IMG/VR virus record: IMGVR_UViG_3300009702_000072
Location: 1-26,076 of that record
Length of the DNA: 26,076 nucleotides
DNA from: a virus
Direction: 5' to 3' (one strand)
The translations under genes were made by a program, and so were the position numbers. Positions 3,364-24,141 of the stretch are shown here, in pieces. The stretch's first letter is position 1. Each line of letters begins with the position of its first letter. A model generated the notes under the pieces. The model ran no database searches and was not told where the DNA came from. It saw only the letters and a program-made list of their open reading frames with translations.

Positions 3364-3393
3364 CATATACAAAAGGTTGATAATGGTTTTCAA
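3364..3393 (-). promoter_or_regulatory. Leaderless-type promoter of the 297-aa appendage gene
   Basis: The -35 TTGAAA (3393-3388) is followed by ACC. After an 18-bp spacer comes -10 TATATG (3369-3364), then six bases and the ATG at 3357. It shares the 15-mer TTTAACTTGAAAACC with the portal promoter. There is no Shine-Dalgarno. Confidence 0.6.
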
Positions 3394-3394
3394 G

Positions 3395-5224
3395 TTAAAC
3401 TCTGGTACTTGGATTAAGCCCCCCGCTAGTCATTAGTTGTGCATCTGTTCTAATACCTAAAAACTCAAAGTTAGAGCTTCCACTATTTGTTATTACTTCA
3501 ACCTGCATGACACGAGCTGTTTTATATAATTGTGCCCATCTTAAAATCTCTCCACCCTCAATAGCAATTGCATTATTTGTTGTTCCTGTCTGAAAAGTAC
3601 CCCACTGGTCTGTACCCCAACCACCAACACCTGTACTACCACTAATGTTAAAACTTTTACTTGTTACAGTAACACCATCTCTACCCTCTAAACGAATGTT
3701 GACAATAACATCACCCTTAACATTTCTAAACAAAACATTGAAAAGTTTAATAACTTTCATTACTGACCAATCTCCAAAATCTTCTTTTCTTGTTCTAAGG
3801 TTTTTGGAAATTATAACCCCACTATCTGTGTTGTAACTCGGGGAAAACTTTTTTACATACCCTGTGTCTGTTCCTGCAAGATAATGTTCACTACCACTAC
3901 TATCAATGTATCTAAGCCAACCTGTAACTCCCCAAGGTGTCTTCCAAGGACCTAAAAAACAACGCCTCTCATAGTCATAAACTACTGTTTCCCTTTTAGT
4001 TGCAAAAGATAAAATATATTTACTATCCATATAACCTGCTGTTGCCTCGTCAAGGTCTGTTTGTGTCAAACCCCTCATGTAGTTTCTTATCCTGCTTGAT
4101 ATTTCCTTGCTCCTTATCTCGTTTAGAAAGTTAGGCTCACTTCCTATCGTATAAATTCCTTTTCTATCCAAAAAGAAAGTATCATTTTCAACCTGTACTA
4201 TTGTCTTGTGAGATACTGCTCCAACAGGTGCTAACTGTTGAAACTGTGCGTCTGTTAAAGCATAGTTTCCTAGAGTAACAATCTTTAAGACTACTGCATA
4301 GGTACTCTTTTCTTTAAAAACAAGTATTGAGGCTGGTACACTACCGCCTTTAACGTTACTCCCTGCAATACCTAATCCCATAATCTTTTCTCCGTCATCT
4401 GGTGCAATCCTTATATAAGTCCCACCATAGCTCCAGTGTAGTCTGTCCTGATATGGATACCGCCCTGATATAAACAACAAACTATCATCTCCGTCTATAC
4501 CTGCAAAAACAAGCCTGTCGTCAAACTTCATTATATACTTTGCATTTGGTCCACCTGTTGTATCACTTGTAGGTATCAATAAAGTATCACTTTGAGGATA
4601 GCCATTATCAAAAAACTCTGTTGTATCCTTATCTACTTGTGCTATATAGCTTTCCTCTCCAGGACTTCCTCTATAAAGGTTATAACCTCTCAAAACACCG
4701 CTTGCCGCACTAACCCCTGTCCAACTAACCCCTATATAGGTTTCTGTTAAATCAAAGGGTAAATTAGAAAGCTCTACTGCTTCACTCCCTAAGGTTTCCC
4801 CAACTTGCGATAAGGCTGTAATTCTCCAACTCCAAATTGTACTACCACTAGCCCCACTTATGTTTGTAGCTAAAGCATTTGTAGGTTTTGCAATAGTAGG
4901 ATAGTTTAAAAGGCTAGTTCCATCGTATTTGCAAAGTTCCCTTGCACCGCCCACTAAGTATGTTAAATTTCCAAGCTGTGCCATTTCAACATCATAACCA
5001 CTTGCAAAAGATGCACCTGTTATCACACTATAACTAGCCCCACTTTTCTTAACTAGTAGCCCATTATCACTAACTGCCAATAGGTCATTAGTTGATGTAT
5101 TTGCATTGATATAAGTACCTAACCCCCTTATATGTCCACTACCCATTAATGAGTAGTCATCACTTCCCCACCTACCAGTAGGAACACCCTTACCTGTAAG
5201 CATTATATTTGTAGCCTCTGCCAA
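3395..5224 (-). CDS. Tail nozzle / stabilisation protein (beta-propeller, P22 gp10-like role)
   Basis: This protein of 609 or more residues is rich in beta strands, with repeated blades such as DRLVFAGIDGDDSLLFISGR and DTFFLDRKGIYTIG. That is the pattern of podovirus tail nozzle or stabilisation proteins (T7 gp12, P22 gp10 type). The early PNELAEATN...TGRWG matches the usual N-terminal 'neX..A.N...g...R.G' region. The neighbour upstream is the probable adaptor, as expected. The only in-frame start seen here is TTG at 5224, without Shine-Dalgarno. However, the reading frame continues upstream through GDFSGG and further to an ATG at 5347, broken by a TGA and a TAG (see next entry). The true start is therefore in doubt. 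Confidence 0.8.
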   Translation of the reverse strand: MAEATNIMLTGKGVPTGRWGSDDYSLMGSGHIRGLGTYINANTSTNDLLAVSDNGLLVKKSGASYSVITGASFASGYDVEMAQLGNLTYLVGGARELCKYDGTSLLNYPTIAKPTNALATNISGASGSTIWSWRITALSQVGETLGSEAVELSNLPFDLTETYIGVSWTGVSAASGVLRGYNLYRGSPGEESYIAQVDKDTTEFFDNGYPQSDTLLIPTSDTTGGPNAKYIMKFDDRLVFAGIDGDDSLLFISGRYPYQDRLHWSYGGTYIRIAPDDGEKIMGLGIAGSNVKGGSVPASILVFKEKSTYAVVLKIVTLGNYALTDAQFQQLAPVGAVSHKTIVQVENDTFFLDRKGIYTIGSEPNFLNEIRSKEISSRIRNYMRGLTQTDLDEATAGYMDSKYILSFATKRETVVYDYERRCFLGPWKTPWGVTGWLRYIDSSGSEHYLAGTDTGYVKKFSPSYNTDSGVIISKNLRTRKEDFGDWSVMKVIKLFNVLFRNVKGDVIVNIRLEGRDGVTVTSKSFNISGSTGVGGWGTDQWGTFQTGTTNNAIAIEGGEILRWAQLYKTARVMQVEVITNSGSSNFEFLGIRTDAQLMTSGGLNPSTRV

Positions 5225-5347
5225 TTCGTTAGGTTTTAGTTCTGTTGGTCTAAATATATTATTCTACCCACCACTAAAGTCGCCTCAGTCAAGTATTATG
5301 CTTTTGCGAGGTCTAAATTGTTTTGATCTTTTATCTAGTAGGGGCAT
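5225..5347 (-). other. In-frame 5' extension of the nozzle gene with two stop codons
   Basis: The same frame as the nozzle begins at ATG 5347, which overlaps the adaptor stop (TAATG). It reads 20 residues ending SIILD, then TGA (5287-5285), then GDFSGG, then TAG (5266-5264), then NNIFRPTELKPNE into the nozzle. An FSGGxN segment followed by a few residues and NE is what nozzle proteins normally carry at their N-terminus, so this stretch looks coding apart from the stops. It may reflect nonsense mutations, readthrough, or internal initiation with an unusual start codon. Confidence 0.6.
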
Positions 5348-6003
5348 TATTCACCGATACGAAAATTGATACGTGCATAGTAGTTGTCTATTGTATTAGT
5401 ACCACTCTCGCTTCTTCTCGTGTGTTCTTTCTCTAAAGCGTTTGCAAGTATCTGATCGGCTTTTGATTGTGCTATCGGAAATCTCTCGTCCGCCCTACTT
5501 TCTAATACATCTGCAATTACGCCTGTTGTAAGGTATTCTGGAGTATTAATATTTATATAGTCATTTAAGCTTGCAATACTTGAGGGATAACTTTGTACCT
5601 GCATTACTAAGCTTGCACCACTCGGAAAGCTATTTGGTACTATGATATTGAAGCCTACGGCTTCGTTACCCATGATATAAAAAACTTCATCTGTAGCATT
5701 TTCTATAGCTTCACTAGGTTCAACCTCTGTATATACTTTTGGGGTAGCACTACTGTAATAATATAAAGGAGAGGCTAGTTTTTTAAAGTTTGTAGGTAGA
5801 GATAACGTTGCCTGACTTGCTTGTGATGTTAAAAAATTGTATGTAGTTCTAAGTTCTTGCCAGTCGTACACTTCGCCGTAATTTCTAAGTCTTCTATTAA
5901 CTAAGCGTGTCCTAACAGCCAAATCTTCACCTGTTGGTGTGTCATCAGCTTGATCTACATAAGTTGAAATATCTTTTAAAATGTCCTCTAAGGTTTTAGC
6001 CAT
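5347..6003 (-). CDS. Head-to-tail adaptor / tail tubular protein
   Basis: This is a 218-aa protein. An N-terminal helical part (EDILKDISTYVDQ, VNRRLRNYGEVYDWQEL) is followed by a beta-rich middle (TNFKKLASPLYYYS), and it ends in a helix with RADERFPIAQSKADQIL. This layout matches podovirus adaptor or tail tubular proteins that sit under the portal (T7 gp11 or P22 gp4 role). The position directly before the nozzle gene supports it. A leaderless-type promoter ends 6 nt before the ATG, and the stop overlaps the ATG of the nozzle frame. The family call rests on pattern and order. Confidence 0.7.
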   Translation of the reverse strand: MAKTLEDILKDISTYVDQADDTPTGEDLAVRTRLVNRRLRNYGEVYDWQELRTTYNFLTSQASQATLSLPTNFKKLASPLYYYSSATPKVYTEVEPSEAIENATDEVFYIMGNEAVGFNIIVPNSFPSGASLVMQVQSYPSSIASLNDYININTPEYLTTGVIADVLESRADERFPIAQSKADQILANALEKEHTRRSESGTNTIDNYYARINFRIGE

Positions 6004-6009
6004 ATTTAA

Positions 6010-6039
6010 TGTATATTAAAAAGGCTAGTAGGTTTTCAA
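6010..6039 (-). promoter_or_regulatory. Leaderless-type promoter of the adaptor gene
   Basis: The -35 TTGAAA (6039-6034) is followed by ACCTA. An 18-bp spacer leads to -10 TATACA (6015-6010), then six bases and the ATG at 6003. It matches the spacing of the other copies exactly, and no Shine-Dalgarno is present. Confidence 0.6.
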
Positions 6040-6042
6040 ATA

Positions 6043-6360
6043 CTAAGTGTTTGGGAAGGCATCGCTAAATAACCCATAGGTTAAGCTAGCCCTATTACTC
6101 CAAGCTGTAGTGTAATCTACTGTTGAAGTATTGTTCTTTATAGTTGCAAATCTTATTGAGTTTCCATTTGAGGTGTCTATATATTTAATCATCCAATCAC
6201 CACCCACATTTTGATAACCAACATAAGTATCAGTACCGCTTGTTATCTCATTTAAGGTATTCCATATATCATGCATTACAACCCTTACACCCCAAGTCCC
6301 ACCTATGTTTATAAACTTTTCAAGCTCTTTTTGTGTTAAGTTATCTCTTATATTAGCCAT
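6043..6360 (-). CDS. Small virion-associated protein, unknown
   Basis: This 105-aa protein has an N-terminal helix (NLTQKELEKFINIGGTW) and a C-terminal beta region with DTYVGYQNVGGDWMIKYID and SIRFATIKN. It is soluble, with no membrane segment. Its ATG lies inside the end of the 123-aa gene (8-nt overlap), so translation is coupled. It lies between the glycosyltransferase island and the adaptor, which suggests a head-completion, decoration or tail role. I do not recognise the family. Confidence 0.55.
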   Translation of the reverse strand: MANIRDNLTQKELEKFINIGGTWGVRVVMHDIWNTLNEITSGTDTYVGYQNVGGDWMIKYIDTSNGNSIRFATIKNNTSTVDYTTAWSNRASLTYGLFSDAFPNT

Positions 6361-6724
6361 ATCTTGCTATCTCTCTTTCTATAGCCTTACTTTCATTGTA
6401 AAGATAAGCATACCTACTAAACTTTTTTATGCTATCACCTATTGCTTCTTTACCAACCCTATTTTGTAGCTGTCTTATTTCCCATAAAGCATCATTAAGG
6501 TTTTTAGCCCCTTTATTAACCGCATACTCCATTAAAAGGGTTAAATCCCTGTCATATTTTGTAGTTTCATCTGTTTTTACCCCAAGTTCTTTTCCTATCT
6601 CGCTTTTAATAACCTCATCACTACTTTGCATTATTCTTATAGGTATGTCTTTGCTATCTACCTTGACTACTTCCTCTTTTGCTTTTTCTGTTGCTTTTTC
6701 TATTATATTTTCTGTGTCTTCCAT
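6353..6724 (-). CDS. Acidic helical protein of the head-tail module, unknown
   Basis: This 123-aa protein is strongly charged. The first 25 residues form a Lys/Glu-rich helix. The rest is predicted helical, with YDRDLTLLMEYAVNKGAKNL and WEIRQLQNRVG. It is coupled to the 105-aa gene. It has its own leaderless-type promoter, so expression restarts here after the glycosyltransferase genes. No motif identifies a function; a structural or assembly role is inferred from place. Confidence 0.55.
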   Translation of the reverse strand: MEDTENIIEKATEKAKEEVVKVDSKDIPIRIMQSSDEVIKSEIGKELGVKTDETTKYDRDLTLLMEYAVNKGAKNLNDALWEIRQLQNRVGKEAIGDSIKKFSRYAYLYNESKAIEREIARYG

Positions 6725-6730
6725 AGTGTA

Positions 6731-6760
6731 ATGATATTTTAAATTACTTTAGGTATTCAA
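6731..6760 (-). promoter_or_regulatory. Leaderless-type promoter of the 123-aa gene
   Basis: The -35 TTGAAT (6760-6755) lies within the last codons of the GT2 gene and is followed by ACCTA. An 18-bp spacer leads to -10 TATCAT (6736-6731), then six bases and the ATG at 6724. Confidence 0.5.
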
Positions 6761-8449: not shown

Positions 8450-9100
8450 TTAAAGAAACTTTAACCATTCCTTAGATATAATTTTCCAGTCATAACTTTT
8501 TGCAAACTCTTTAGCTTTTTTGCTTTCCTCTGCCCACCTTTTGGGGTCAAGCATTAGAGCAATTAGCTTTCTTTTGTATTCCTCCTTAACTTCTGGCATA
8601 TAAATATCACCCTGTATTTTTATACCACTACCAACAGTTTCCTTTAAAGCGGCAAGTTCGATAACAACTGGTACTAAACCATCATTTTGGCACTCCAAAG
8701 CTGTTATACAGTTTATCTCTGTGAAATGAGTTGGGTAAGCCCATATACCACAGCTTTTTCTGATTTTTCTTAGTTCTCCCTGTCCAACTCTTCCATGATG
8801 TTTAATACCTTCTTGTTCCATCAGTTTGTTCATCTTTTCTTTCCAAGCTTGCCTTTCTGGGTTGTTACCATAGGCTTTATCAAACAAATACCAGCCATAA
8901 CAAACGTCTAGTGTTGCTTTAGGTACAGTATCCTTAATATCCGACCATATATTTAAAAGATGTTCTAAACCTCTGTCATACGATGAAAAATATCCGAGTT
9001 TATGTCTTTTGGGCACGATTGAGTTTGCTGTGTAATTTTTGGTGTTCTGATGCGTTTTTGAGAAGCATGAGGTTTTCTGGTCTATTGTCTTGTCTGTCAT
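8450..9100 (-). CDS. Glycosyltransferase C-terminal domain, detached by HNH insertion
   Basis: From about residue 25 the protein reads VPKRHKLGYFSSYDRGLEHL, then CYGWYLFD, GRVGQGELRKI, and a GT-B end with IWAYPTHFTEINCITALECQ. This is the sugar-nucleotide-binding half of a GT4-type enzyme. The matching N-terminal half is at the end of the 607-aa gene, 0.5 kb upstream, where it stops after ISNGITL. The first 25 or so residues overlap the HNH gene in another frame and are unlikely to be native; GTG within SIVPKRHK is another possible start. A free C-terminal domain would probably be inactive unless it pairs with the upstream half. Confidence 0.7.
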   Translation of the reverse strand: MTDKTIDQKTSCFSKTHQNTKNYTANSIVPKRHKLGYFSSYDRGLEHLLNIWSDIKDTVPKATLDVCYGWYLFDKAYGNNPERQAWKEKMNKLMEQEGIKHHGRVGQGELRKIRKSCGIWAYPTHFTEINCITALECQNDGLVPVVIELAALKETVGSGIKIQGDIYMPEVKEEYKRKLIALMLDPKRWAEESKKAKEFAKSYDWKIISKEWLKFL

Positions 9101-9509
9101 GATTAATATGGTGAACTACCTCCTGAGAGGCTAAACTTCTTCCAATTTTGCTTTCCATTACAAGTCGGTGTTCTCTCACATATCCATGATAATCGGAATC
9201 GGGGTGTTCGGGTTTCCATAATAGAATATAGCCACCTTTGCTTATTCTCCGCCCACCTTGCCAATTTGGGTTTTTGTTGCCCGACACATCTGCGTGATTC
9301 TCCGACATTTTCTTCCTTGCTGTAATGGGCATCTTTTTGTTTTTCCAATAACCTGGTCTTTTTTTGTCTCCCTCGTACTTGCATGCTCTTGAACAAAAAT
9401 GGGATTTGTATCCTTTTACTTTGTCCCATCTTATTCTGCTTGGATACACCCAATATTCTTTCTGACAAGAATCGCAAATTAGTTTTACCTTTTCCACATG
9501 CTTTGGCAT
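9000..9509 (-). CDS. HNH homing endonuclease
   Basis: This 169-aa protein has a Cys pair at the N-terminus (CDSCQKEY) and CSRAC near residue 38, giving a zinc-finger-like knuckle. GNKNPNWQGGR around residue 77 is a motif seen in phage HNH enzymes. The catalytic HNH part is near 113-157 (EHRLVMESKIGR, VVHHINHDRQDNRPENL, SEHQKLH). It should cut DNA at a specific site and spread its own gene. It lies between two halves of a glycosyltransferase. No promoter or Shine-Dalgarno is obvious. It is a single compact ORF without room for a surrounding intron core. Confidence 0.9.
   Translation of the reverse strand: MPKHVEKVKLICDSCQKEYWVYPSRIRWDKVKGYKSHFCSRACKYEGDKKRPGYWKNKKMPITARKKMSENHADVSGNKNPNWQGGRRISKGGYILLWKPEHPDSDYHGYVREHRLVMESKIGRSLASQEVVHHINHDRQDNRPENLMLLKNASEHQKLHSKLNRAQKT
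9030..9037. repeat. 8-bp direct repeat GTGTAATT, copy 1 (near HNH 3' end)
   Basis: The same octamer occurs at 9590-9597, at the end of the 607-aa gene. The two copies bracket the HNH gene and may be an insertion footprint or chance. Confidence 0.25.
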
Positions 9510-9531
9510 AAATATTATGGTACATCATATG

Positions 9532-9588
9532 ATGCCACATGTTAAGTCTATCATAACTTGACCCATAAAATAGTTTTAAATTCTTCAT
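9532..9588 (-). pseudogene. Glycosyltransferase fragment upstream of the HNH gene
   Basis: An ATG at 9588 overlaps the stop of the 607-aa gene (ATGA) and reads MKNLKLFYGSSYDRLNMW, after which similarity ends. FYGSSYDR and LNMW mirror GYFSSYDR and LLNIW in the C-terminal domain downstream. It therefore looks like the start of the same domain, broken by the HNH insertion. The start context TTACACTATG also occurs at the 123-aa gene. Confidence 0.5.
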
Positions 9589-11408
9589 AGTGTAATTCCA
9601 TTAGAAATTATTACTGCTTTTTCGTCAGGTAGTTTTGGTAAATTACATCTATGGTACTCACTTTTAAAGAATACTTTGTCTATCTTGTCCATCTCTTTTT
9701 TAGTCCACTGTGTTTGCCCTGCAACATCGTGTAAGTCCATAAACAACTTTTTAGCATTCTTAACTTTTTCTATTAAGTGAGGGGATCTCCAAAGGATAAA
9801 TATATTAAATTTGTCTTTCCAGTTTATTTGCCAGTAGGGTTTCCATTCAACACCATTAGGGCTTTTTTTGGTCTTTTCAATATCTGCATAGACAGTAACA
9901 TTGTACCCTGCCTTAGCCCACTCTTCGCTAAGTCTTATTACTGCTGTTTCACTTCCACCTATACCACCTTTCTCTGCACTATCAAAATTCCAACTTTCAA
10001 AATGTGGGTAACCAAAAGAGGCATAATAAACAATACTTTTCTTACCCCAAGTCTTTACCTTACCCACCTGCCCCGCTATATAGTTTATAGCTGGTAACTG
10101 CCCCAACTCGTTCGGTAAAACTTCTATAATTTTCCTTATAGCTTGTTTATCTCTGTGTATATTGTCTAGATATTTACAGAGGTTAAAAACCCCCTTTGCA
10201 ACCTTATCAATCTTCTGTATATTTTTTACCTCTTCATATAAGCCGTCATCTTTACCTAGTAAAGCCCTACGTTTACCCGACCACTCTATCATCTTATCTA
10301 TATCATTCTTGCGTCTTGCACTCATATAGTTAAGTGTTGTAGTCAACAAAAGTATTTCGTGTGTGTTTCCTATTGTTGTACTACTTGAAGGAGCCTCCAT
10401 TTTCATAGCTACATCAAGCCAGTGATCTGCAAACTCATCTTTCCCGAGCATAAAATAGCAATTAGCTATCCTTAAATGTGTGAGGTGTAGTTTTGGGTAT
10501 TCTATAATAGCCTTGTGGTAAACATTCAAAGCCTTTTTATAATCTCTCTGCTTTTCATAAATAAGCCCTAAGTATTCCAAAGCATTAGCTCTCTCTGTAT
10601 CCCAACCACTAAGCTCTAAGTATTTATGCAACCACCTCTTAGCCTCTTCCAAGTCTTTTGGAGAACCTTTATCAAAATATACTTTGGCAAGGTAAAATAA
10701 TGTTCTAGGGTCTTTGTAGTCCTCTTCTTTTGCCTGTATGTTAAGTATAAAAATGTTTCTATCAAATGCGGTTTTAACTCTTTTTTGCTCGGTTAGGTGT
10801 ACCCACTTACATGTTTTATTCTCACTGGTGCTTTCATCCCATGAAAACCCCTTTCCTTTTACTGAGTTGTCTATAGGTACGACAACCTCGTGTAATCTAC
10901 TAACCCACTTAAACTTGTTAGGCTTTATTAAACGTTCTCTAAGGTGTTGAATAACAACATCAACTACTCTTCCTTGTTTATCTGTTTTAACAGCGTACCA
11001 GTAATTAAAAAATACTAAATCAGCTTTCTTTTTTAGTGCTAGTTTTGATGCTTCTATAATTTCCCCACCCCCAACAAGTACATCGTCAACGTCAGCCCAA
11101 GAGATATAATCATATTTTTTATCTATTAATGACCAGCTTACATTTCTTGCCTCTGCAAAGTTTGAAAATACCCACTTACCCTCATGTTTAGTATATATTT
11201 TAGGGTGTGTTTTTGGTGTAGTTATAATATATTTACCCTTATACCTCTTAACAAGCTTTTTTAGTTTCTCGTTTTTACCACTTGTGCCTGTAATAGCAAC
11301 GTAAAGACCATCAAAGTAAGGGGTAAAAGACTTGAGCATTCTTTTGGCAAGGTGAAATTCGGTGTCGTCCTTAAAAATAGCAGTTAAACAAAGTTTTGGT
11401 TGTTTCAT
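9585..11408 (-). CDS. Two-domain glycosyltransferase with TPR linker (GT2 + TPR + GT4 N-half), truncated
   Basis: Residues 5-190 are a GT2-type domain (LCLTAIFKDD, FAEARNVSWSLI, and DVDD at 106-109 as the metal-binding motif). Residues 235-340 hold TPR-like helices (TLFYLAKVYFDKG, NALEYLGLIYEKQ, HLRIANCYFMLGK). Residues 455-607 are the N-terminal half of a GT-B enzyme (IVYYASFGYPHFESW, GGIGGSETAVIRLSEEW, LFMDLHDVAGQTQWT). The protein stops at VIISNGITL, where GT4 enzymes continue into their donor-binding half. That half lies downstream of the HNH gene. The GT2 and TPR parts should still work. The G-run before the ATG (GGGGGG) may help ribosome binding. Confidence 0.82.
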   Translation of the reverse strand: MKQPKLCLTAIFKDDTEFHLAKRMLKSFTPYFDGLYVAITGTSGKNEKLKKLVKRYKGKYIITTPKTHPKIYTKHEGKWVFSNFAEARNVSWSLIDKKYDYISWADVDDVLVGGGEIIEASKLALKKKADLVFFNYWYAVKTDKQGRVVDVVIQHLRERLIKPNKFKWVSRLHEVVVPIDNSVKGKGFSWDESTSENKTCKWVHLTEQKRVKTAFDRNIFILNIQAKEEDYKDPRTLFYLAKVYFDKGSPKDLEEAKRWLHKYLELSGWDTERANALEYLGLIYEKQRDYKKALNVYHKAIIEYPKLHLTHLRIANCYFMLGKDEFADHWLDVAMKMEAPSSSTTIGNTHEILLLTTTLNYMSARRKNDIDKMIEWSGKRRALLGKDDGLYEEVKNIQKIDKVAKGVFNLCKYLDNIHRDKQAIRKIIEVLPNELGQLPAINYIAGQVGKVKTWGKKSIVYYASFGYPHFESWNFDSAEKGGIGGSETAVIRLSEEWAKAGYNVTVYADIEKTKKSPNGVEWKPYWQINWKDKFNIFILWRSPHLIEKVKNAKKLFMDLHDVAGQTQWTKKEMDKIDKVFFKSEYHRCNLPKLPDEKAVIISNGITL

Positions 11409-11891: not shown

Positions 11892-11897
11892 ATAGTA

Positions 11898-11926
11898 GAT
11901 GTAATAAAAAAGCCCCTCTCCGTCAA
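11898..11926 (-). promoter_or_regulatory. Possible leaderless promoter embedded in the terminator
   Basis: TTGACG (11926-11921) lies in the loop and 3' arm of the terminator hairpin. After 17 bp comes TACATC (11903-11898), and the ATG follows six bases later. The geometry equals that of the portal promoter, but the -10 is poor. Confidence 0.3.
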
Positions 11927-11938
11927 GGAAAGGGGCTT
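11906..11938 (-). terminator. Rho-independent terminator after the major capsid gene
   Basis: On the minus strand AAGCCCCTTTCC pairs with GGAGAGGGGCTT around a TTGAC loop, giving a 12-bp stem with one G-U pair. A run of T follows at once. It is the clearest terminator in the window and lies 26 nt after the capsid stop codon. Confidence 0.92.
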
Positions 11939-11963
11939 AAACTTGATACTAATAAAGCACTAT

Positions 11964-13825: not shown

Positions 13826-13832
13826 TAGTTAA

Positions 13833-13909: not shown

Positions 13910-16900
13910 TTACTTGTAAGGAGTAAGTTTTATTGTTGGATTTGCTAAAGCTTTAAGCTCACTAGCTGATATTACGTCAGGAGTACTTGTAGTTAATGAT
14001 CCAAGTGTAATCGGTTTACTTTTTCTTAAACTATTAAATGATAATTTTCCTTTGGAATAGTAAGGTGATGTTTTTATGCTCCCAATTTTTACATTACTTG
14101 AAACACCTTTAAGTTTGTTTGGGTATTTTGATGATTTACCACTACCACTACCACCACCTAAATATCTAAACCCTGTGCCATAGTTGTATTTTGTAATATT
14201 AAACCCTTGATCGTTTAGGTACTTAACAACACCCTTAGTTAAAACTTTCCCCTCATATAACTTATTTACAACATCAGATAGAGCTGTGTCATCTTCACCA
14301 ACACTTTCGAGTTGTTTAATTACCCATTCACCCCTAGCTTCTGTACTTTGGCTACCGTCCTTGCTGTAAGTCATCACACCTATATCAAGTATTTGATCAG
14401 GTCTTTCCTTTTCTATCTGTCTTTTAAACCCCATAGCTGTGTCCATGCTATTCTGTAGCTCTTGAAGTTTTTTATCTCTTGTAGCTTGGTCATACTTAGG
14501 GTTATACAAAATATCTGTTTTCTTTTCTCTGTAACTATTTATGATTTTGTTTGTATTACCATAGAGAGATGCTAGGTCTTTTGTGTTTGTTGGTAGACTT
14601 GCCCCTGCACCCCTGGAAGCATCAACTTTATTACTACCAAATAGCTTTCCGAGTTTTACTCCTTTAGTACTTGTGCTTTTACTTGGGTATACAGGTAATT
14701 CTAAGGTACTCATTAAAGCTTCTGTAGGTGTTTTTCTACCTTGTGCAACTGCAATGGGACCGCCTATATAAGGATGAGCCAACTCCTCTGCGGTGTACCC
14801 TGCAAGCTTTCCAACCTTTCCACCTACTGTGTCCTCCTTTTTATAAATAGGACCACCATAAAATGTTCTATTAGTTAATAGAGAGCTACCAACATTTAAC
14901 GGTTGGCTGAAAAAACTACCAGCCCTTTGTGTAGCTGTTCTAACATCACCCTTTCTTAATGCACCACCAATTTCTAAACCTCTTCTTGGTACTGTTGCTA
15001 TACTTGGTTGAAGTGGTATAAACCAGCTCCTATTATTTTTTCTTGGTATTTCAAGAAAAAACTCTTTACCCCCTTTATTTTGGTGCATATAGTGTCCTGT
15101 AAGCTGTTTATTTAATAAATCATAAAGTACATAAGTTAACACTACACCCCCTAAGTATTTCCTATTGTACTTGTAAGCTGGGTTTGTTAAATTCTTAGGA
15201 AGTAGAGCCTTAATGTTCTTACCCCAAAAGTTAAGCATACTTTCTCTAAATGTAGGTGCAAAGAAAATAGTAGAAAGGGCATTTTCAACATCCTTACTTC
15301 TTGAAAGTTTATCAGCAACACCGTGCCATGCTTTGGTTGTATCTCCTGCAAGCTTTCTTGCTTCTTCGTGTGTAAGTCCCTCTTTTATACCCCTATCGTA
15401 AGTGTCTTTAAAAGTGTTGACTTCTAACATAGGCATAAACCTGTTAAAAGTAGGCTCTTCCATTGCTGTGTGCCACCAATCTGCAAATTTTTTACCAGCC
15501 CCCCTTGGTGCCTCTGCTTCTAATAAGTTTTTATAAGCTTTGTTATAATCCACAGTTGATCTACTTCTTATACCTTCCTCCGCCATCATAGTTGAATACT
15601 TGGCTCTTTCTTTGAAGAAGTTTTTTGTTTTCTTATCACTCATAGCTGTGAAAAAAGCCTGTGTAGGGCTTTTAAACCTACCTGCTGTAAACTCTTTTAT
15701 CATATTTGCTATAGTAAATGCATTAAGAGGTGTTTTTGGCACCCCACCACTCATGCTAACTTCCATAGTAGCTCTAGAAACCTTTGCCCCCGTCCTTAAA
15801 AAGGCATTACCTTTATCTAAAGTAAACATATTATTTAAGCTCTTAGCGATATTTGGTTCAGCTCTAAACCCATCCATATCAGGAACTAATTGTGTATCAA
15901 TAGTTCTCCAACCTGTAGGTGCTTTATCTGCTGGAACAATAGCCCCTAACCTCTTTAAATGGCTTATTAAATCTCTATTTGCTAATGCTCTTTCTAACTG
16001 ATACCTATAGTGAGCTGCTAACTGCCCGGGGTGTGTATATTTAGGTGTTAAACCATAAGCAACACCCTCTTCATACGTCTTAAATTTTCTTTGTTTAGTA
16101 AAACTTGGGTTCTTTCCTAAACCTTTACCCTTTTTCATATATTCTGCTAAAGCCTTATCAACTTCCTCTGGCGGGTTTTTCCACACTTGGTTTAAATAAT
16201 TATCTAAATAGTTAATATCTAAACCTCTTCTTATACCTTCCTTTCTTATACTGTTGTAATAGTTTCTAAGGTCAGACATTTCTTTTGCATATTTGCCACC
16301 TAAATCAACTTTTGCTTTAGGGTCTTGAAACTTTTTTATAAACTTCCAGCCATCTTTTTCATCAATACCACTAAACCTATTAATTACCTCGTTTGCTTTA
16401 GTTCTACCAGTAAGTATCCTACTACCCCAGTCTGATATTTCTTTTTGTACCTCTTTTGGTGCATTTTTAATAGGTTTGAGTATTTTATTTAGCTCTGCTC
16501 TAATACCTGTTTTTGTATTTATATCTATTGGTCCGTCAGGTGTTGGAAAGTTTGTTTGTATTGTTCTTGGTCTACTACTTTTAACTGTATTATCAACATT
16601 CTCAGGTACATTCTGTAAAAAGTTACTTAACTTACCACTTTTTACACCCTTTTTGTATTGTCCATAACTTATCTTATCAGCCTCACTTACAGGCAAGCCA
16701 CCTTTAACAAGGTTGTCTTGATAGCTAAGCAACCCCGATAAATTCCTTTTAGCTGGCTTGTTAGCTTCCCTTTCTGTAATAGGTTTAGCATTTATTTGTC
16801 TGTCTATGTTGTCTAGTGGTTTATTTAAAATATCTCTGTTATATTTCAAAACACCAGGAGTATTAAACAATCCGTCTACTTCCCCCGTCTTTAGGTTCTT

Positions 16901-18838
16901 AATAGCTAATTCCCTGTACTGTTTTTCACTTGGTTTTCTACCATATTCTGCAAAAAAATCTCTATACCATTGTGGATTTAAGCTCGACCTATAACCTCCG
17001 CCAGTAAAGTCCTCGCCTTTTTTAATAATACCAACACCACCTACTTGTGATTTAAGCCTTTCTACTTCTTGTTTAATAAGGTTTTTTGCTTGTTTAGAGA
17101 AATTACCAACACTATCACTAGCCCCCTTAGCTTGGTTGTAGATGTCGGTTAGTTGGGATTTGGTATAGACTGGTATGTTGTCTTCAAATATCTGATAAGT
17201 CATTCCTTGTTTTCCGTTTGCATATTCTGGAATAGCTACACCTATTTTCCCTTGTTTTTTAGCAACTTGTTCAGCTAAATCAGTATTAAGAGTTGACCAG
17301 TCTGCTTTGCCACCAGGAAACATATAATCAAAGTCTTGTCTTGTAAAATCTACTGTTTCGCCATCAATTGTTTTATATTTTTTACCTATAAAATCCTCAA
17401 ACATTTTTTTATTTGCGTTTACATCTAATACTTTATTTTTAATATTTCCAGGTGCTTGATAGACTTTACCTCCAAAACTGAATCCTTCTGCTATTTCTGG
17501 AGTATCTGTAAGAAAATGACCTCCCATATAACCACCTTTTTTAAGCTGATCTCCTGCACCAAAAGTAAGTTTTCCTCCCTTAATTTCATTAGGTGTCCCA
17601 TGATAAAGTGATTGTGCCTTAATAAACTCCTCTGCACTCTTATACTTCTTAGCTTCCTCGATAAGATCCTCAGGCTGACCTACCTTAGCACCAAAATCTA
17701 CAGCCCCTCTTTTACTTAATAAAGCCCCCTTGTAATCAATAGCCCTTATCTTGCCTTTTGTATCCCTTGTAAAGTTAAACCCTGCCTTTTCAAGCATATT
17801 TATATACTTTGGTTTAAAGGTAAACTCACCACTTGCTTTTTGCCACCTATAACTACCGTCTGGCATTTGTAGTAGTCTTGTTGTGCTATCTCCTACTGAC
17901 TTTTTAAATACGCCTGATAAAGCCTCACCACCTATAGGCATAAGTGCATCTATAGCAATACTCATAGCTGTCGTGTTTAAATCACTAGCCTTATCTATAA
18001 GTATTCCTTGCCCTACATTTGCCGCTGACCTTAATGCAAGTTTTTGTACTATTGGGAGTTTACTACCTACAGTAGTTACATACTCGTTGGTACCGCCCAT
18101 GACACCTGCCATTGGTATACTCTTATCTAGTCCTTGTATTGATGTATTAAATGCTCTGCCTAAGCTTCTATCTTTACCCCCTGTAATATAGTTTAAGCCT
18201 GTTCCGAGTGCCTGTTGCCCTGCAATCAAGGCTGGGTTTTCTAAACCAGTTGCAAATAAGGCTGGTGAAAAAGCACCTACTAAGTTACCAGCTGTCTTAT
18301 ATCCATACTTTAAAGGGTTAGCCTTTAGCTGGTCCCTAGCCCATTGTTCCCTAAATGGTAAAACAGCATTCTCTGCAAACTGGAAAGCTTTAGAGTCTGC
18401 TGTAAAAGGTCTTTGATAATTTATATTGTCAAAGGCTAAAGACCCTAAGGAGTTACCAACATCTCTTACTTGTCTTGGTATCTCCCTAACTGGACTACTA
18501 TTAAGTATATTTACACCAGCATTTGCTAGTGCTTTAGGAAAGCTTGAGCTACTTTCTGTAGGAGAAAATGGTGTGGGTATTCTTCTATCTGCTGTAGCGT
18601 TTAATCCTCTTTGTACAAAAGCTCCAGCTTTAGTAACAGGGTTAGCCCTATACTTGCTTGGGTTGTAATAAAAACTTTGTTTAGGTGTTGGGTTTAAAGG
18701 CTTTCTATTAGGGTTAAAATTGCTCCTATTCCATGCATTACCTATCCTCTCATCAATGTTTGTAGAATTATCCAGTTTACGTATAGCCCCTTTTACACGA
18801 TTTCTTACAATCTTGCTTATATTTGATATATCTGCCAT
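13910..18838 (-). CDS. Giant polyvalent/ejection protein with ADP-ribosyltransferase-like domain
   Basis: The protein has 1642 aa. Residues 1-330 are low in Cys and rich in Asn and Ser, with Gly/Ala-rich, weakly hydrophobic helices. Residues 410-560 look like an ART fold as seen in phage polyvalent proteins: LYHGTPNEI (410-418), GGHFLTDTPEIAEGF (439-453), NIKNKVLDVN, and a final strand MTYQIFEDNIP (546-556). Residues 780-1340 form a long helical region containing LDNYLNQVW, GWRTID and FFAPTFRESMLNFWG, as in large polyvalent-associated regions. A Ser/Gly-rich tail ends the chain. It is probably packaged and injected with DNA to act on host proteins or DNA. The catalytic state is not proven. 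Confidence 0.68.
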   Translation of the reverse strand: MADISNISKIVRNRVKGAIRKLDNSTNIDERIGNAWNRSNFNPNRKPLNPTPKQSFYYNPSKYRANPVTKAGAFVQRGLNATADRRIPTPFSPTESSSSFPKALANAGVNILNSSPVREIPRQVRDVGNSLGSLAFDNINYQRPFTADSKAFQFAENAVLPFREQWARDQLKANPLKYGYKTAGNLVGAFSPALFATGLENPALIAGQQALGTGLNYITGGKDRSLGRAFNTSIQGLDKSIPMAGVMGGTNEYVTTVGSKLPIVQKLALRSAANVGQGILIDKASDLNTTAMSIAIDALMPIGGEALSGVFKKSVGDSTTRLLQMPDGSYRWQKASGEFTFKPKYINMLEKAGFNFTRDTKGKIRAIDYKGALLSKRGAVDFGAKVGQPEDLIEEAKKYKSAEEFIKAQSLYHGTPNEIKGGKLTFGAGDQLKKGGYMGGHFLTDTPEIAEGFSFGGKVYQAPGNIKNKVLDVNANKKMFEDFIGKKYKTIDGETVDFTRQDFDYMFPGGKADWSTLNTDLAEQVAKKQGKIGVAIPEYANGKQGMTYQIFEDNIPVYTKSQLTDIYNQAKGASDSVGNFSKQAKNLIKQEVERLKSQVGGVGIIKKGEDFTGGGYRSSLNPQWYRDFFAEYGRKPSEKQYRELAIKNLKTGEVDGLFNTPGVLKYNRDILNKPLDNIDRQINAKPITEREANKPAKRNLSGLLSYQDNLVKGGLPVSEADKISYGQYKKGVKSGKLSNFLQNVPENVDNTVKSSRPRTIQTNFPTPDGPIDINTKTGIRAELNKILKPIKNAPKEVQKEISDWGSRILTGRTKANEVINRFSGIDEKDGWKFIKKFQDPKAKVDLGGKYAKEMSDLRNYYNSIRKEGIRRGLDINYLDNYLNQVWKNPPEEVDKALAEYMKKGKGLGKNPSFTKQRKFKTYEEGVAYGLTPKYTHPGQLAAHYRYQLERALANRDLISHLKRLGAIVPADKAPTGWRTIDTQLVPDMDGFRAEPNIAKSLNNMFTLDKGNAFLRTGAKVSRATMEVSMSGGVPKTPLNAFTIANMIKEFTAGRFKSPTQAFFTAMSDKKTKNFFKERAKYSTMMAEEGIRSRSTVDYNKAYKNLLEAEAPRGAGKKFADWWHTAMEEPTFNRFMPMLEVNTFKDTYDRGIKEGLTHEEARKLAGDTTKAWHGVADKLSRSKDVENALSTIFFAPTFRESMLNFWGKNIKALLPKNLTNPAYKYNRKYLGGVVLTYVLYDLLNKQLTGHYMHQNKGGKEFFLEIPRKNNRSWFIPLQPSIATVPRRGLEIGGALRKGDVRTATQRAGSFFSQPLNVGSSLLTNRTFYGGPIYKKEDTVGGKVGKLAGYTAEELAHPYIGGPIAVAQGRKTPTEALMSTLELPVYPSKSTSTKGVKLGKLFGSNKVDASRGAGASLPTNTKDLASLYGNTNKIINSYREKKTDILYNPKYDQATRDKKLQELQNSMDTAMGFKRQIEKERPDQILDIGVMTYSKDGSQSTEARGEWVIKQLESVGEDDTALSDVVNKLYEGKVLTKGVVKYLNDQGFNITKYNYGTGFRYLGGGSGSGKSSKYPNKLKGVSSNVKIGSIKTSPYYSKGKLSFNSLRKSKPITLGSLTTSTPDVISASELKALANPTIKLTPYK

Positions 18839-18844
18839 AGGTTA

Positions 18845-18874
18845 CCTATACAAAAGGAGAGTATAGGTTTTCAA
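18845..18874 (-). promoter_or_regulatory. Leaderless-type promoter of the 1642-aa gene, inside an inverted repeat
   Basis: The -35 TTGAAA (18874-18869) is followed by ACCTA. An 18-bp spacer leads to -10 TATAGG (18850-18845), then six bases and the ATG at 18838. An 8-bp inverted repeat ACCTATAC/GTATAGGT (18861-18868 and 18844-18851) spans from the spacer to the -10. Confidence 0.6.
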
Positions 18875-20047
18875 TTAAAAGGATTGTTCGTCTATAGGTT
18901 TTCTGTAACCAGATAAAACCATGCTTGGGTTACTGTTAGATGTTGAACCTATATTACTTGAGTAGTCACCGCTTCTATTAAAAGCATCTGTTATAACATT
19001 CCTTGAACTGTCAAAAGCGTTTGTACTTGCACCTTGTAATGCTTCATTATATTGACCCATAAGTGTATCGAGGTATCTTGTGGCGTTGCCTGTTTCAACA
19101 GCAATCTGTTGTGCAAAGCCCCTTGCTTCATCCTGTAGTTGTCTTGCTCTAGTTCTGTACTCCCTCATAAGGTCAAGTTTTATTTCATCTCTTCTACTAG
19201 CTATTTCACCCCTCATACTATCTACATCTGATAATCTTGCACTAAGTTGTGATTGTAGATTACTTATAGCTTGCTGTAGTTTAACTTGTACTTGCTGTAT
19301 CTTATTATTTGACTCAACTTCAACATTTTTTCTTTCATTGTTTAGCTGGGTAATATTGTTTATTAAGTTTTGATGTATAGAGCCTATGTTTCTTTGTAGT
19401 TCTCTTCCATATATCTCCTGTGCCGCTTCACCAACACCACTTAAAGCACCACTACCAAATAAGTTATTTGCTCTTTGAGTTAGCTGTCCACCTAAGTTTC
19501 TTGCTTGATCTACAGCTTTTCTACTTCCTTGTTCACTTGCAGTTTGTGCATCTTGTATAACATTTAAAGCCTTGTCCTTAGCTTGGTTTATTTGAGGTAT
19601 CTGCGAGTTAAAAAGGTCTGTAGTTGTTTTTACTTGGTTGTTAAAATCACCCCTTAGTCTATTCTCTGTATTATTTAAAGCTCCTAAGGTTTCAGAATAA
19701 GCACCACCTAACCTGTCGTAATAATCACTGGGGGAGTACCCCATTATTGTTTTACTACTACCATTGTCTCCAGGATTATCTACTGCTGTGTTTATAGTTC
19801 CACTACTTGAGCTTGTAGAAGCCCCCTTTACACTTCCGTAATCATTACTACTGTTTTTCCTTGGGTCACTCAAAGGAGCAAACCTATTGTAGTTAACATT
19901 AGTAGGTGTAGTAGCCTGTGTAATATAGTCTACTCCAGATTTACTACCTGTACTTTGTGGGTTTCCTCCTGCAAAAAACTCACTTAGCCCAAACTCGGGT
20001 AAATTTACTTTTCCTAAATTCCAATTACCTGTCATTGAAAATGCCAT
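18875..20047 (-). CDS. Coiled-coil internal virion (ejection) protein
   Basis: This is a 390-aa protein. The first 110 residues are Ser/Asn/Gly-rich and look disordered. From about 120 to 350 it is Gln-rich helical and coiled-coil (NNERKNVEVESNNKIQQVQ, LQQAISNLQSQLSARL). There is no membrane segment. It lies directly before the 1642-aa gene under the same promoter type, so the two may form the set of proteins injected with the DNA, as internal virion proteins of short-tailed phages do. No family motif is recognised; the role is inferred. Confidence 0.6.
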   Translation of the reverse strand: MAFSMTGNWNLGKVNLPEFGLSEFFAGGNPQSTGSKSGVDYITQATTPTNVNYNRFAPLSDPRKNSSNDYGSVKGASTSSSSGTINTAVDNPGDNGSSKTIMGYSPSDYYDRLGGAYSETLGALNNTENRLRGDFNNQVKTTTDLFNSQIPQINQAKDKALNVIQDAQTASEQGSRKAVDQARNLGGQLTQRANNLFGSGALSGVGEAAQEIYGRELQRNIGSIHQNLINNITQLNNERKNVEVESNNKIQQVQVKLQQAISNLQSQLSARLSDVDSMRGEIASRRDEIKLDLMREYRTRARQLQDEARGFAQQIAVETGNATRYLDTLMGQYNEALQGASTNAFDSSRNVITDAFNRSGDYSSNIGSTSNSNPSMVLSGYRKPIDEQSF

Positions 20048-20053
20048 AGTCTA

Positions 20054-20083
20054 TATATAGTAAATATAGAAATAGGTTTGCAA
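20054..20083 (-). promoter_or_regulatory. Leaderless-type promoter of the 390-aa gene
   Basis: The -35 TTGCAA (20083-20078) is followed by ACCTATTTC. An 18-bp spacer leads to -10 TATATA (20059-20054), then six bases and the ATG at 20047. It is a very close copy of the scaffold promoter. Confidence 0.62.
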
Positions 20084-20620: not shown

Positions 20621-20623
20621 ATT

Positions 20624-20896: not shown

Positions 20897-20944
20897 AATA
20901 ACATCTTATCATAAAAAATTATGAGGCAAAAATAACTTATAAAA

Positions 20945-21430
20945 TTAATACCTTATAAACAACTGTACTACATAAGTGCCATTAACAGCTACACAAGTTC
21001 TATCCACCTCAGTGTCAAGCATACCAGCATTGTGTGCAGGGGACCCTTCCCAGTTTTTTAAAGCTGCGTAATTACTAATAGACCCATGTAATATATTTTC
21101 ACTAATCCTCTTATACTTAAAAGTACCCCACCTTCTTTCAAAACCTGCATGACTGTAATCTGTCTTTATCTCCTTAGCTCGTTCCTTTGCTATAACACAA
21201 AGGTTATCATCGTGTATAAGTCTTGGTAGCCCTTTCTCCTCCCTGTAGTCGTTAACTAAGTTTTCAATAGTCATTGCGTCTAATACATATCTTCTAGGTT
21301 GTGGTTGTCCTACTGGTACGTGTTTTGTGGTAGACTTTTGGGCATTAAAGTACCCTTTGTTGCTTAAAAGATATAAAAATAATGCAGTTGCTAGTAACAA
21401 CATTACAAGTAACTTAGCTAACCTTTTCAT
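20945..21430 (-). CDS. Membrane-anchored CAP (SCP/YkwD-like) domain protein
   Basis: This is a 161-aa protein. Residues 5-23 form a signal anchor (LAKLLVMLLLATALFLYLL) after a basic start. The CAP domain covers 55-161: IENLVNDYREEKGLPRL, ERAKEI, SHAGF, SENILHG, SPAHNAGM and YVVQLF. The two His and one Glu of the CAP cavity are present. Bacterial YkwD-type proteins are secreted and their role is poorly known. In a phage it may alter the infected cell surface. It has its own near-consensus promoter ending six bases before the ATG, so it can be expressed apart from the packaging genes. Confidence 0.82.
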   Translation of the reverse strand: MKRLAKLLVMLLLATALFLYLLSNKGYFNAQKSTTKHVPVGQPQPRRYVLDAMTIENLVNDYREEKGLPRLIHDDNLCVIAKERAKEIKTDYSHAGFERRWGTFKYKRISENILHGSISNYAALKNWEGSPAHNAGMLDTEVDRTCVAVNGTYVVQLFIRY

Positions 21431-21436
21431 ACCTTA

Positions 21437-21465
21437 ATTATACTATAGGCTTGTATATTAGTCAA
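21437..21465 (-). promoter_or_regulatory. Near-consensus leaderless promoter of the CAP gene
   Basis: TTGACT (21465-21460), a 17-bp spacer and TATAAT (21442-21437) are followed by six bases and the ATG at 21430. The -35 lies over the stop of the 98-aa gene. It is the best sigma-70-like promoter in the window. Confidence 0.7.
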
Positions 21466-21908: not shown

Positions 21909-22221
21909 AGCTTGGCTCTTCCCCTTCATCATCCTCTTTTTCTTTTTTCAAAAGGTTATTCATTATCTCTTCCTGTTGACTAATAATAGAATTAAATTGT
22001 TTTACTAAGTTAGTTCCACCTGTAGCGAAGATGTAATCTTTTTCTATTTGTTTGAAAGGGTTGTATTTATAAGATTTGTCCTGTGGGTTGGGGTACTTGC
22101 TGTTGGCTATTTGTGTTAACAACGCTACTGCTAGCTCCCACCCCTTGTGCTTCTGCAACTCCGTTAGTAGGCTGGCTTGTCTCAATGTTTCCGCTTCCTG
22201 CAATGTTAGTTTTTTGCTCAT
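21898..22221 (-). CDS. Small protein overlapping the portal 3' end
   Basis: This 107-aa protein is helical (LTLQEAETLRQASLLTEL, GWELAVALLTQIA) and ends in a charged, acidic tail (KKEKEDDEGEE). The first 155 nt overlap the portal gene in another frame, where the portal codes a Gln/Ser/Asn-rich tail. The unshared part reads like normal protein (DYIFATGGTNLVKQF). It also overlaps the zinc-ribbon gene. The compact helical makeup suggests an assembly partner, but I do not recognise it. Confidence 0.55.
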   Translation of the reverse strand: MSKKLTLQEAETLRQASLLTELQKHKGWELAVALLTQIANSKYPNPQDKSYKYNPFKQIEKDYIFATGGTNLVKQFNSIISQQEEIMNNLLKKEKEDDEGEEPSYAI

Positions 22222-24106
22222 CTATTTTCTGTACAAATTTGTCAGGATCTTTATATCCGCTATCTTCTAAGACTTGTACAACAAGCTCTTTTGTTTGTAA
22301 AGTATAGCCTTCTTGTTGTAACTTAGATGAAATCTGTGGGTTGATTGCAACCTCTAAGGCTTTAGTTCTACCATTCTGTCTTTCTTTTGCTGTGCCTAAA
22401 GCTAAACTATTAACGTCTGGAATATAGTCATAATATCCATCAAGGTCTTCGGGTTCTATTCTAAGAACACCTGTTTCACTCTCTTCGTCCATCTCTAATT
22501 TAGGATGTATATTTTTCCCCTCAACAACTGGTACTTTAGGTACTCTACTCATTTTTAAAAGTATTTTTAGCTCTTCGTCTGTAATGTCCGTGTTTTCATC
22601 TATAAATTTAACTATTTCTTGTATAGCTTCCGGATCACTGCTGTATTGATCTAGTTTATAATTTTTAAAGTCTTTTAGCATATCTTTACCTATTATCCTT
22701 ATGATCTTTACCTCTTTTGTTTTATCTGCAAATAAGTATCTCTGGTTATTCTTTAGCCAAAGCATCATCTGATCTTTTAATGCTTGCTCAAGGTATAACT
22801 GGTTGTATTGATCTCTTGATAGTTTTTGCTTCTCTAATGATTTAATTTCTGTTGCTGTTTTATCACCATTTCCAAAAGGGTCTACTGTAGATGTTGCTAA
22901 ACTACTATCACCCATTGCACTATTAAATATACTCTTTCCTGCACTATATAAGGTTTGAAAGTTTTTAATAAAAGCACCATTAGTTTGATGTTCTACAACA
23001 TTATTAACACTACTACCTGTCTTCCATATAACGTTTGGACCATAAACTATTGTGTCAATTCTCACACTTGCGTCGGAATGTGCTACCTTAACAGGAGGCT
23101 TCATTGTTATGTTACCCTCATCAACTGCACCTGATAGTATAGAATTTATCATTCTTGATACGGGTAGTACACTTTCAACCTCACTCTCACCATAATAATC
23201 ATCGGGTACAGGGTAGTATCTTAACTGTACAATAGGTATCGTTGCACCATAAGGGTTATCATAACCATTATTAAGTAAAATGTTATATCTAGGTGAAAAA
23301 CAATAAAATTTGTCTTTCCTCATCTCTGTTACTACCTCAATAACTGGAAAAGCACTATCAGTCCCTACCCTATCCTCAAGTCCTCTAATGTTCTTTAGTT
23401 GACTTTCATATCTAGCAGACCTTCTTTCCCCACCTGTCTTATTCTCTATCTTGTCTTTTAACCACTCAATGTTCTTATATAGAGGTTTTAAACCTCTATC
23501 TGTATAACTCTTATTAACATCCTCTAACTCCTCTACTGTTTTCCATTCCCTTAGTTGTACCCATTTGGCGTCTTTAACATGGGTAGCTGTGTAATCTACA
23601 AATATATCTCTTGGGTCAAGTACCTTAAACTCGTTACCTTCATATACCAACTCGCCCTCTTCGTTGTAATCTGTATGCCAGTAAACACGAGCAAAGGATG
23701 CACCGTATAACCTCGTTTGCATATCCATCAAAGCCCATTTCTCAATCATCGACCCACCTTTTTGTGCATTGTCCCACTGGTAAGAAAGAATAGCATTATT
23801 AATCTTGGCTTTTACAACATCCCCAGTTTCTCTTGGTACAAGCCTACCCCTTAACTTTCCATTGAAAAGACGTGCCGTCTTTTCTATGATTGTCGTTCTG
23901 ATAATAGGGTCATTTACTTTTGATAAATATACCCAGTTTTTAGGAAACACACCGTGATAAGCTTTTAAAACATCATTCCAACCATTTCTCCTAAGTCTTC
24001 TCTGGTCCATGTCATCTACACTTCTTGAATAGTGGTCTTTAACCAACTGTGATAATAGGTTACTATCTTTCTCTGAAAGAAAATTATTGTTCTTATCTTT
24101 AGCCAT
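22067..24106 (-). CDS. Portal protein
   Basis: This 679-aa protein is within the size range of short-tailed phage portals. An N-terminal helix-rich part (DHYSRSVDDMDQRRLRRNGW) leads to WALMDMQTRLYGASFARVYW and VLDPRDIFVDY, the portal wing. The stem region is near ESEVESVLPVSRMINSILSG, and a long helical crown follows. The last 40 residues are Gln/Ser/Asn-rich. It forms the dodecameric ring through which DNA enters and leaves the head. It directly follows the large terminase and has a leaderless-type promoter inside a perfect 12-bp inverted repeat. Confidence 0.88.
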   Translation of the reverse strand: MAKDKNNNFLSEKDSNLLSQLVKDHYSRSVDDMDQRRLRRNGWNDVLKAYHGVFPKNWVYLSKVNDPIIRTTIIEKTARLFNGKLRGRLVPRETGDVVKAKINNAILSYQWDNAQKGGSMIEKWALMDMQTRLYGASFARVYWHTDYNEEGELVYEGNEFKVLDPRDIFVDYTATHVKDAKWVQLREWKTVEELEDVNKSYTDRGLKPLYKNIEWLKDKIENKTGGERRSARYESQLKNIRGLEDRVGTDSAFPVIEVVTEMRKDKFYCFSPRYNILLNNGYDNPYGATIPIVQLRYYPVPDDYYGESEVESVLPVSRMINSILSGAVDEGNITMKPPVKVAHSDASVRIDTIVYGPNVIWKTGSSVNNVVEHQTNGAFIKNFQTLYSAGKSIFNSAMGDSSLATSTVDPFGNGDKTATEIKSLEKQKLSRDQYNQLYLEQALKDQMMLWLKNNQRYLFADKTKEVKIIRIIGKDMLKDFKNYKLDQYSSDPEAIQEIVKFIDENTDITDEELKILLKMSRVPKVPVVEGKNIHPKLEMDEESETGVLRIEPEDLDGYYDYIPDVNSLALGTAKERQNGRTKALEVAINPQISSKLQQEGYTLQTKELVVQVLEDSGYKDPDKFVQKIDEQKTNIAGSGNIETSQPTNGVAEAQGVGASSSVVNTNSQQQVPQPTGQIL

Positions 24107-24136
24107 AACCTACAAGTAATAAAATACTTGTAGGTT
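24107..24136. promoter_or_regulatory. Perfect 12-bp inverted repeat at the portal start
   Basis: AACCTACAAGTA and TACTTGTAGGTT flank a 6-nt loop and end one base before the portal ATG. The repeat covers the spacer and -10 of the promoter. It could be an operator, or, in read-through RNA from the terminase genes, a hairpin that hides the start or ends transcription. Confidence 0.6.
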
Positions 24137-24141
24137 TTCAA
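24113..24141 (-). promoter_or_regulatory. Leaderless-type promoter of the portal gene
   Basis: The -35 TTGAAA (24141-24136) is followed by ACCTA. A 17-bp spacer leads to -10 TACTTG (24118-24113, poor), then six bases and the ATG at 24106. The -35 region is identical over 15 bases with that of the 297-aa gene. Confidence 0.45.

Follow-up and report, generated by a model that had tools for sequence, protein, structure and literature searches.

Introduction

The mRNA leader of gene 32 of phage T4, which encodes an abundant phage protein, contains a pseudoknot. Leaderless phage mRNAs are known from few cases, among them the middle and late mRNAs of the Thermus phage phiYS40, during whose infection IF2 is raised and IF3 lowered (review PMC3594737). 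TA-led leaderless genes of Actinobacteria and Deinococcus-Thermus carry TANNNT about 12 bp upstream of the start (PMC3160421, PMC12340547), and the late promoters of phage phiEco32 are read by a phage sigma factor, gp36 (review PMC3594737). Because phiYS40 and the TA-led bacterial genes have already been described, leaderless phage mRNAs are a known kind. Here we present a repeated late promoter from IMG/VR virus record IMGVR_UViG_3300009702_000072, the whole of which (26,076 bases; hereafter the window) was analyzed and whose evident genes all lie on the minus strand. An earlier note on this DNA had proposed that the promoter makes leaderless mRNAs for at least six late genes. We put the probability that the late promoters yield leaderless virion-gene mRNAs, while the capsid unit receives a pseudoknot leader, at roughly 0.8.

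Compared with phiYS40 as the review describes it, the likeness is that middle or late phage transcripts are leaderless, which is predicted here from the sequence. With the TA-led bacterial genes the window shares TANNNT about 12 bp before the start codon and the absence of a Shine-Dalgarno (SD) sequence, but it differs in a conserved -35 element with an AACC extension and in a small late regulon of a phage family. As in phiEco32, host RNA polymerase would read podophage late genes, and one relative, G022, also encodes a sigma factor; this factor, however, is RpoD-like and 270 aa long, and 16 other records had no region-2 match. New are the conservation throughout a family of uncultured phages, a -35 that is extended by AACC and drifts from phage to phage, and the pairing with a pseudoknot leader at the capsid unit; a literature text search, mostly outside subscription journals, returned no earlier report of such promoters or of the leader. 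In this uncultured podophage-like family the leaderless placement is kept in orthologous late genes at about 40% protein identity. With leaderless genes beside SD genes in one region, it becomes directly testable whether translation mode sets virion stoichiometry; the promoter can be used to call gene starts in such phages, and the late promoters offer compact parts for leaderless expression.

Late promoters of the window

Six motif-led ATGs were located where the earlier note had placed them, together with the genes that they open:

24107-24141, minus strand: late promoter of the portal gene, TTGAAAACCTACAAGTATTTTATTACTTGTAGGTT then ATG at 24106; orthologous promoter in relatives
22067-24106, minus strand: portal protein, 679 aa, predicted leaderless, without SD; match to PHROG portal/head-tail adaptor
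20048-20083, minus strand: late promoter of the 390-aa gene, TTGCAAACC..TATATA-TAGACT-ATG
18875-20047, minus strand: 390-aa late protein, ortholog group A, predicted leaderless
18839-18874, minus strand: late promoter of the 1642-aa gene, TTGAAAACC..TATAGG-TAACCT-ATG, holding an 8-bp inverted repeat
13910-18838, minus strand: 1642-aa late protein, counterpart of motif-led genes of 1,100-1,490 aa in relatives
6725-6760, minus strand: late promoter of the 123-aa gene, TTGAATACC..TATCAT-TACACT-ATG
6353-6724, minus strand: 123-aa protein, group J, predicted leaderless
6004-6039, minus strand: late promoter of the 218-aa gene, TTGAAAACC..TATACA-TTAAAT-ATG
5347-6003, minus strand: 218-aa protein, group G, predicted leaderless; ortholog in 7/7 long relatives
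3358-3393, minus strand: late promoter of the tail gene, TTGAAAACC..TATATG-TAGGGT-ATG
2464-3357, minus strand: virion/tail protein, 297 aa, group I, predicted leaderless; PHROG 35197 and 10330

The -35 variants are as originally read, TTGAAAACC at four sites, TTGAATACC at 6724 and TTGCAAACC at 20047, and so is the spacer of 17-18 bp (18 bp at five of the six sites, 17 bp at 24106). The -10 hexamers, described as mostly TATA-like, are TATATG (3357), TATACA (6003), TATCAT (6724), TATAGG (18838), TATATA (20047) and TACTTG (24106); all six lie exactly six bases before the ATG (-12 to -7), and only TATCAT ends in T. Under a strict definition of a site (TTGAAAACC allowing up to one mismatch, TA at -12 and ATG at 35-37), six sites were found on the coding strand, against none in 300 Markov simulations and none on the other strand, in line with the view that chance is an improbable source. 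All six starts agree in nine upstream columns, compared with a mean of 0.13 and a maximum of 2 in 5,000 random sets of six ATGs.

Conservation in relatives

A terminase profile led to loci with related portals, and a portal profile yielded 80 loci with portals 35-53% identical. Single-sequence scans with the portal, the major capsid protein (MCP) and the 390-aa protein found no viral relatives, and scanning the viral collection for the motif turned up unrelated single hits. Three sets of loci were set aside, all without the motif: the first terminase-only relatives (L004-L009), distant MCP relatives (L131, L136), and tail-domain relatives (L051-L130), whose likeness is mostly limited to a C-terminal domain. 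In a host search with the portal family, a match was obtained in 1/380 small genomes of one phylum and in 0/396, 0/398 and 0/345 of three others.

In most loci with portals at 39-45% identity, TTGAAAACC, TTGATAACC or TTGCAAACC stands about 36 nt upstream of the portal ATG. In the closest loci (portal 47-53%, AT-rich) the element is mostly a TTG-first variant that lacks AACC, with the geometry unchanged. Orthologous groups were compared among the window, seven long relatives and G022. In the window and most relatives the promoter leads the genes of six groups: A (390 aa), B (about 1,400 aa), C (portal), G (218 aa), I (tail) and J (124 aa). The 1642-aa protein was matched to its counterparts by size and position, not by sequence similarity. 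For these six groups in nine phages, TTG stands 34-38 nt upstream in 42/49 starts. No promoter stands directly before the scaffold, MCP, glycosyltransferase, 609-aa and terminase genes, except in G021, whose 609-aa gene has one 37 nt upstream of a GTG. Motif, spacing and the genes served are thus kept in divergent relatives, the opposite of the loss in close relatives that would have spoken against the earlier note.

In distant portal homologues (L180-L191 and L318-L336; e.g., L183, L180 and L320), a terminator-like hairpin with a T-run abuts the portal ATG, as in GCGCCTCACCAGGGGGCGCTTTTTTTATG; fold z-scores of seven examples range from about -1.6 to -4.2. This is a second odd start architecture in sister phages.

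Start position and Shine-Dalgarno sequences

Motif statistics were taken from 68 non-redundant loci (898 kb). There are 119 occurrences of the pattern TTG[ACT][AT]AACC, whereas two control patterns gave 56 each; 46 TTGNNAACC sites are followed, 35-38 nt downstream, by an ATG that opens at least 80 codons, against none for the controls. When 49 sites are aligned on the ATG, T-12 is found in 39, A-11 in 42, A-9 in 30, T-7 in 32 and a pyrimidine at -1 in 45; TA stands at -12 in 30/31 sites whose TTG is 36 nt from the ATG. Jitter of one base in the alignment reduces the -10 information every time (0/2000). TA-led leaderless bacterial genes are characterized by a TANNNT-like -10 about 12 bp before the start (PMC3160421). 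The register of the -10 across the 49 sites (T-12, A-11, T-7, pyrimidine at -1) points to the A of the ATG as +1. With that A as +1, the observed -10 occupies the textbook -10 position.

Regarding translation, SD sequences (GGAG, GAGG, AGGA or AAGG at -16 to -5) precede 0/44 motif-led genes, 112/337 other genes and 13% of random ATGs, so the proposed split between leaderless and SD genes is borne out; all 44 motif-led genes share the absence of SD with the TA-led genes (PMC3160421). The MCP gene has the strong SD ascribed to it, AAGGAGATCATACTATG. Relatives, -10 register and SD split together support the leaderless interpretation of the earlier note. One of two amendments to it concerns the spacing: the distance of six bases between -10 and ATG stands, but it is not strictly constant and is sometimes seven.

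The alternative that survives best is that transcripts start a few bases off the ATG, either with leaders of 2-6 nt or inside the open reading frame, and that genome compaction alone sets the distance. Intergenic gaps near promoter length (about 36 nt at 24106, 18838 and 3357) would suit it, as would the existence of 37-38 nt classes and gene A of G022, which has ATT at the expected ATG position and an ATG 3 nt further on. Against it stand the -10 at -12 to -7 and, in 45/49 sites, a pyrimidine followed by a purine at -1/+1; if transcription began off the ATG, the pyrimidine at -1 would not be kept. We regard such displaced starts as unlikely.

Capsid-unit leader

A further copy of the promoter had been noted near 13860, with seven bases between -10 and ATG. 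The seven-base gap was seen (at 13862), whereas a further leaderless gene was not: this copy is the capsid-unit promoter, and the capsid unit has a structured leader.

13826-13862, minus strand: capsid-unit late promoter (seventh copy), driving a leader, not a leaderless gene
13791-13819, minus strand: H-type pseudoknot of the capsid-unit leader; S1 pairs TCGG (13816-13819) with CCGA (13803-13806), L1 is TGA; S2 pairs TGCTC (13808-13812) with GAGCA (13791-13795), L3 is CAAATTA
12895-13767, minus strand: scaffold protein, 290 aa, leadered, named by its position before MCP
11964-12866, minus strand: MCP, 300 aa, PHROG 1328, strong SD AAGGAG

Downstream of the 13862 copy the sequence reads GGTGATGCTCGCCGACAAATTAGAGCA. 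The frame that starts with the ATG at 13825 has only 30 codons, is not in phase with the scaffold reading frame (12895-13767) and is probably incidental. It (13736-13825) crosses the capsid leader and an A7 run and continues, in its different frame, beyond the scaffold ATG. We dropped the idea of a frameshift from the 13825 ATG, as relatives show a leader and not an N-terminal extension.

A pattern search for crossing helices in all fetched loci gave 20 instances, all in portal-family phages, and none in reversed sequence. Each of the 20 precedes a scaffold gene, and nearly all lie 41-50 nt after the TTG of a late promoter. S1 varies across all four Watson-Crick pair types, and S2 is UGCUC/GAGCA or, with compensation, UGCAC/GUGCA; two crossing helices with covariation define an H-type pseudoknot. 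A covariance model holding the S2 pairs only found ten more members, in which S2 is also UUCUC/GAGAA or UGCCC/GGGCA, and S1, unpaired in the model, holds in 10/10 (L287 needs a 2-nt, not a 1-nt, link). Among 28 leaders, 93.8% of S1 cells are paired, against 48% (maximum 62%) with re-dealt arms, and an outer helix scores 13.8, against 6.7 (maximum 9.2). The 5' arm of the outer helix starts mostly at TTG+34 to +38, the position of the ATG in leaderless genes, which gives independent support for the start-site assignment. The leader measures 50-100 nt in about 30 phages, with the promoter 5' and usually an SD and then the scaffold gene 3'; the scaffold gene has an SD in 20/28 leaders. Rfam 15 yielded no gathering match for the pseudoknot leader and only chance matches at permissive E. 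The leader looks new and is a candidate for a new class of cis-regulatory RNA. It resembles the T4 gene 32 leader in placing a pseudoknot in the mRNA leader of an abundant phage protein, but differs in its core (UGA, UGCUC/GAGCA), in serving a capsid unit and in having no known binding protein.

The capsid leader also bears on a second alternative, in which the 36-nt element acts at the RNA level, as a non-SD device for ribosome recruitment or a regulator site within a longer leader. The fixed distance to the ATG would agree with this, and two window copies fold well (z -6.3 and -4.4). Across ten leaderless sites, however, there is no consensus structure (0 consensus pairs), the element is bipartite with a variable spacer and canonical -10 positions, and it also drives the capsid leader, where no functional ATG lies next to it. 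We consider an RNA-level element improbable.

Promoter type and regulator

Promoters of a phage single-subunit (T7-type) RNA polymerase, which several near-identical late promoters per genome might suggest, are highly improbable, as T7-type promoters are contiguous motifs of fixed spacing read by a phage RNA polymerase, whereas the spacing here varies by 2-3 bp within the family, the -35 and -10 are canonical, and PF00940 had no match in 18 records (a search without positive control). The variable spacer, the TTG of the -35 and the TAnAnT -10 argue for reading by a bacterial holoenzyme. With TTG fixed, -10 TAnAnT and a spacer mostly of 18 bp (range 17-19), the promoters are of the sigma70 type, for which the AACC extension is atypical.

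The extension behind the -35 is phage-specific: TTGATAACCTCC in G018, G019 and G021, TTGAAAACCC/TTGAAAAGGC in G012, TTGCAAACC in G016 and TTGATATTT in G022. The mean Hamming distance between -35 variants is 2.28 within a phage, against 4.12 for the same gene in different phages. Such phage-specific variants suggest that a co-evolving phage regulator or sigma factor lies behind AACC, AAGG and ATTA. G022, among the closest relatives, encodes the RpoD-like sigma factor mentioned above in its late region (L361:1051-1863, minus strand). The 16 records without a region-2 match include several longer than 40 kb; sigma region 4 gave no match over the cut-off in 18 records, and the early-region proteins of five relatives had no common sigma or polymerase among the matches listed.

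Perfect inverted repeats starting at AACCTA are present in two window promoters (12 bp at 24107-24141, 8 bp at 18839-18874), and the promoters of L287 contain the inverted repeat AACCTAGA..TCTAGGTT. Such repeats occur in 6/52 late-promoter sites, against 0.95 expected, and are possibly the site of a dimeric regulator.

Proposed expression scheme

The promoter would consist of a -35 TTGNNA extended by AACC, a spacer of 17-19 bp and a TANNNT -10, and would be read by bacterial RNA polymerase. Transcription may begin at the start codon's A or at the base before it, and the portal, 390-aa, about 1,400-aa, 218-aa, tail and 124-aa genes would be translated from leaderless mRNAs. At the capsid unit the same promoter would give a message that opens with the outer helix from near +1, enclosing the H-type pseudoknot, after which usually an SD and then the scaffold and capsid genes would follow. 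As the same promoter serves leaderless and leadered genes, transcription would be common to them and the mode of translation different; this difference between low-copy virion parts and the high-copy capsid could help to set stoichiometry. We lean, by a modest degree, towards the wider view that one promoter serves two translation modes, that a new class of pseudoknot leader controls or stabilizes the capsid message, and that promoter specificity drifts phage by phage with a putative regulator while the leaderless geometry stays fixed.

Several observations weigh against leaderless expression as set out here. The window's -10 hexamers are mediocre (TACTTG is poor; also TATAGG). Sites were selected by -35 and ATG distance and not by the -10 and -1 columns or SD, so that only the statistics on the latter are independent of selection. 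An alignment anchored on TTG is about as sharp as one anchored on ATG; the -10 is therefore bound no more closely to the ATG than to the -35. Among the sites of the 37-nt class, the -10 lies at -12 in 7/15 and at -13 in 5/15, from which leaders of 0-1 nt, not strictly none, are expected, and TA was at -12 in 0/3 sites of the 38-nt class. The capsid leader of the window has S1 and S2 but no convincing outer helix, no SD was found before its scaffold gene, and no regulator common to the relatives was found.

Other features of the window

The evident genes on the minus strand are those for terminase, portal, CAP, 390-aa, 1642-aa, scaffold, MCP, glycosyltransferases, virion and tail proteins, a holin-like protein and an M23 endolysin. 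As relatives reach 40-44 kb, the window probably represents part of a genome.

21431-21465, minus strand: CAP-gene promoter TTGACT-17-TATAAT-6-ATG, consensus sigma70-like, same geometry without AACC
20945-21430, minus strand: CAP-domain protein (PF00188; SCP/PR1-like), 161 aa, possibly leaderless

The CAP promoter agrees with the earlier description, but ACC is absent. The gene of the CAP-domain protein lies in a late region of the phage and has a consensus promoter of its own. Downstream of MCP (11475-11960) a terminator-like hairpin AGCCCC..GGGGCT is followed by a T-run, and the gene after MCP (ATG 11891) has TTGACG-17-TACATC-6-ATG overlapping this hairpin. Two glycosyltransferase-like genes lie behind the capsid gene (8450-11408), one of which encodes 607 aa with TPR repeats and has orthologs in 7/7 long relatives compared.

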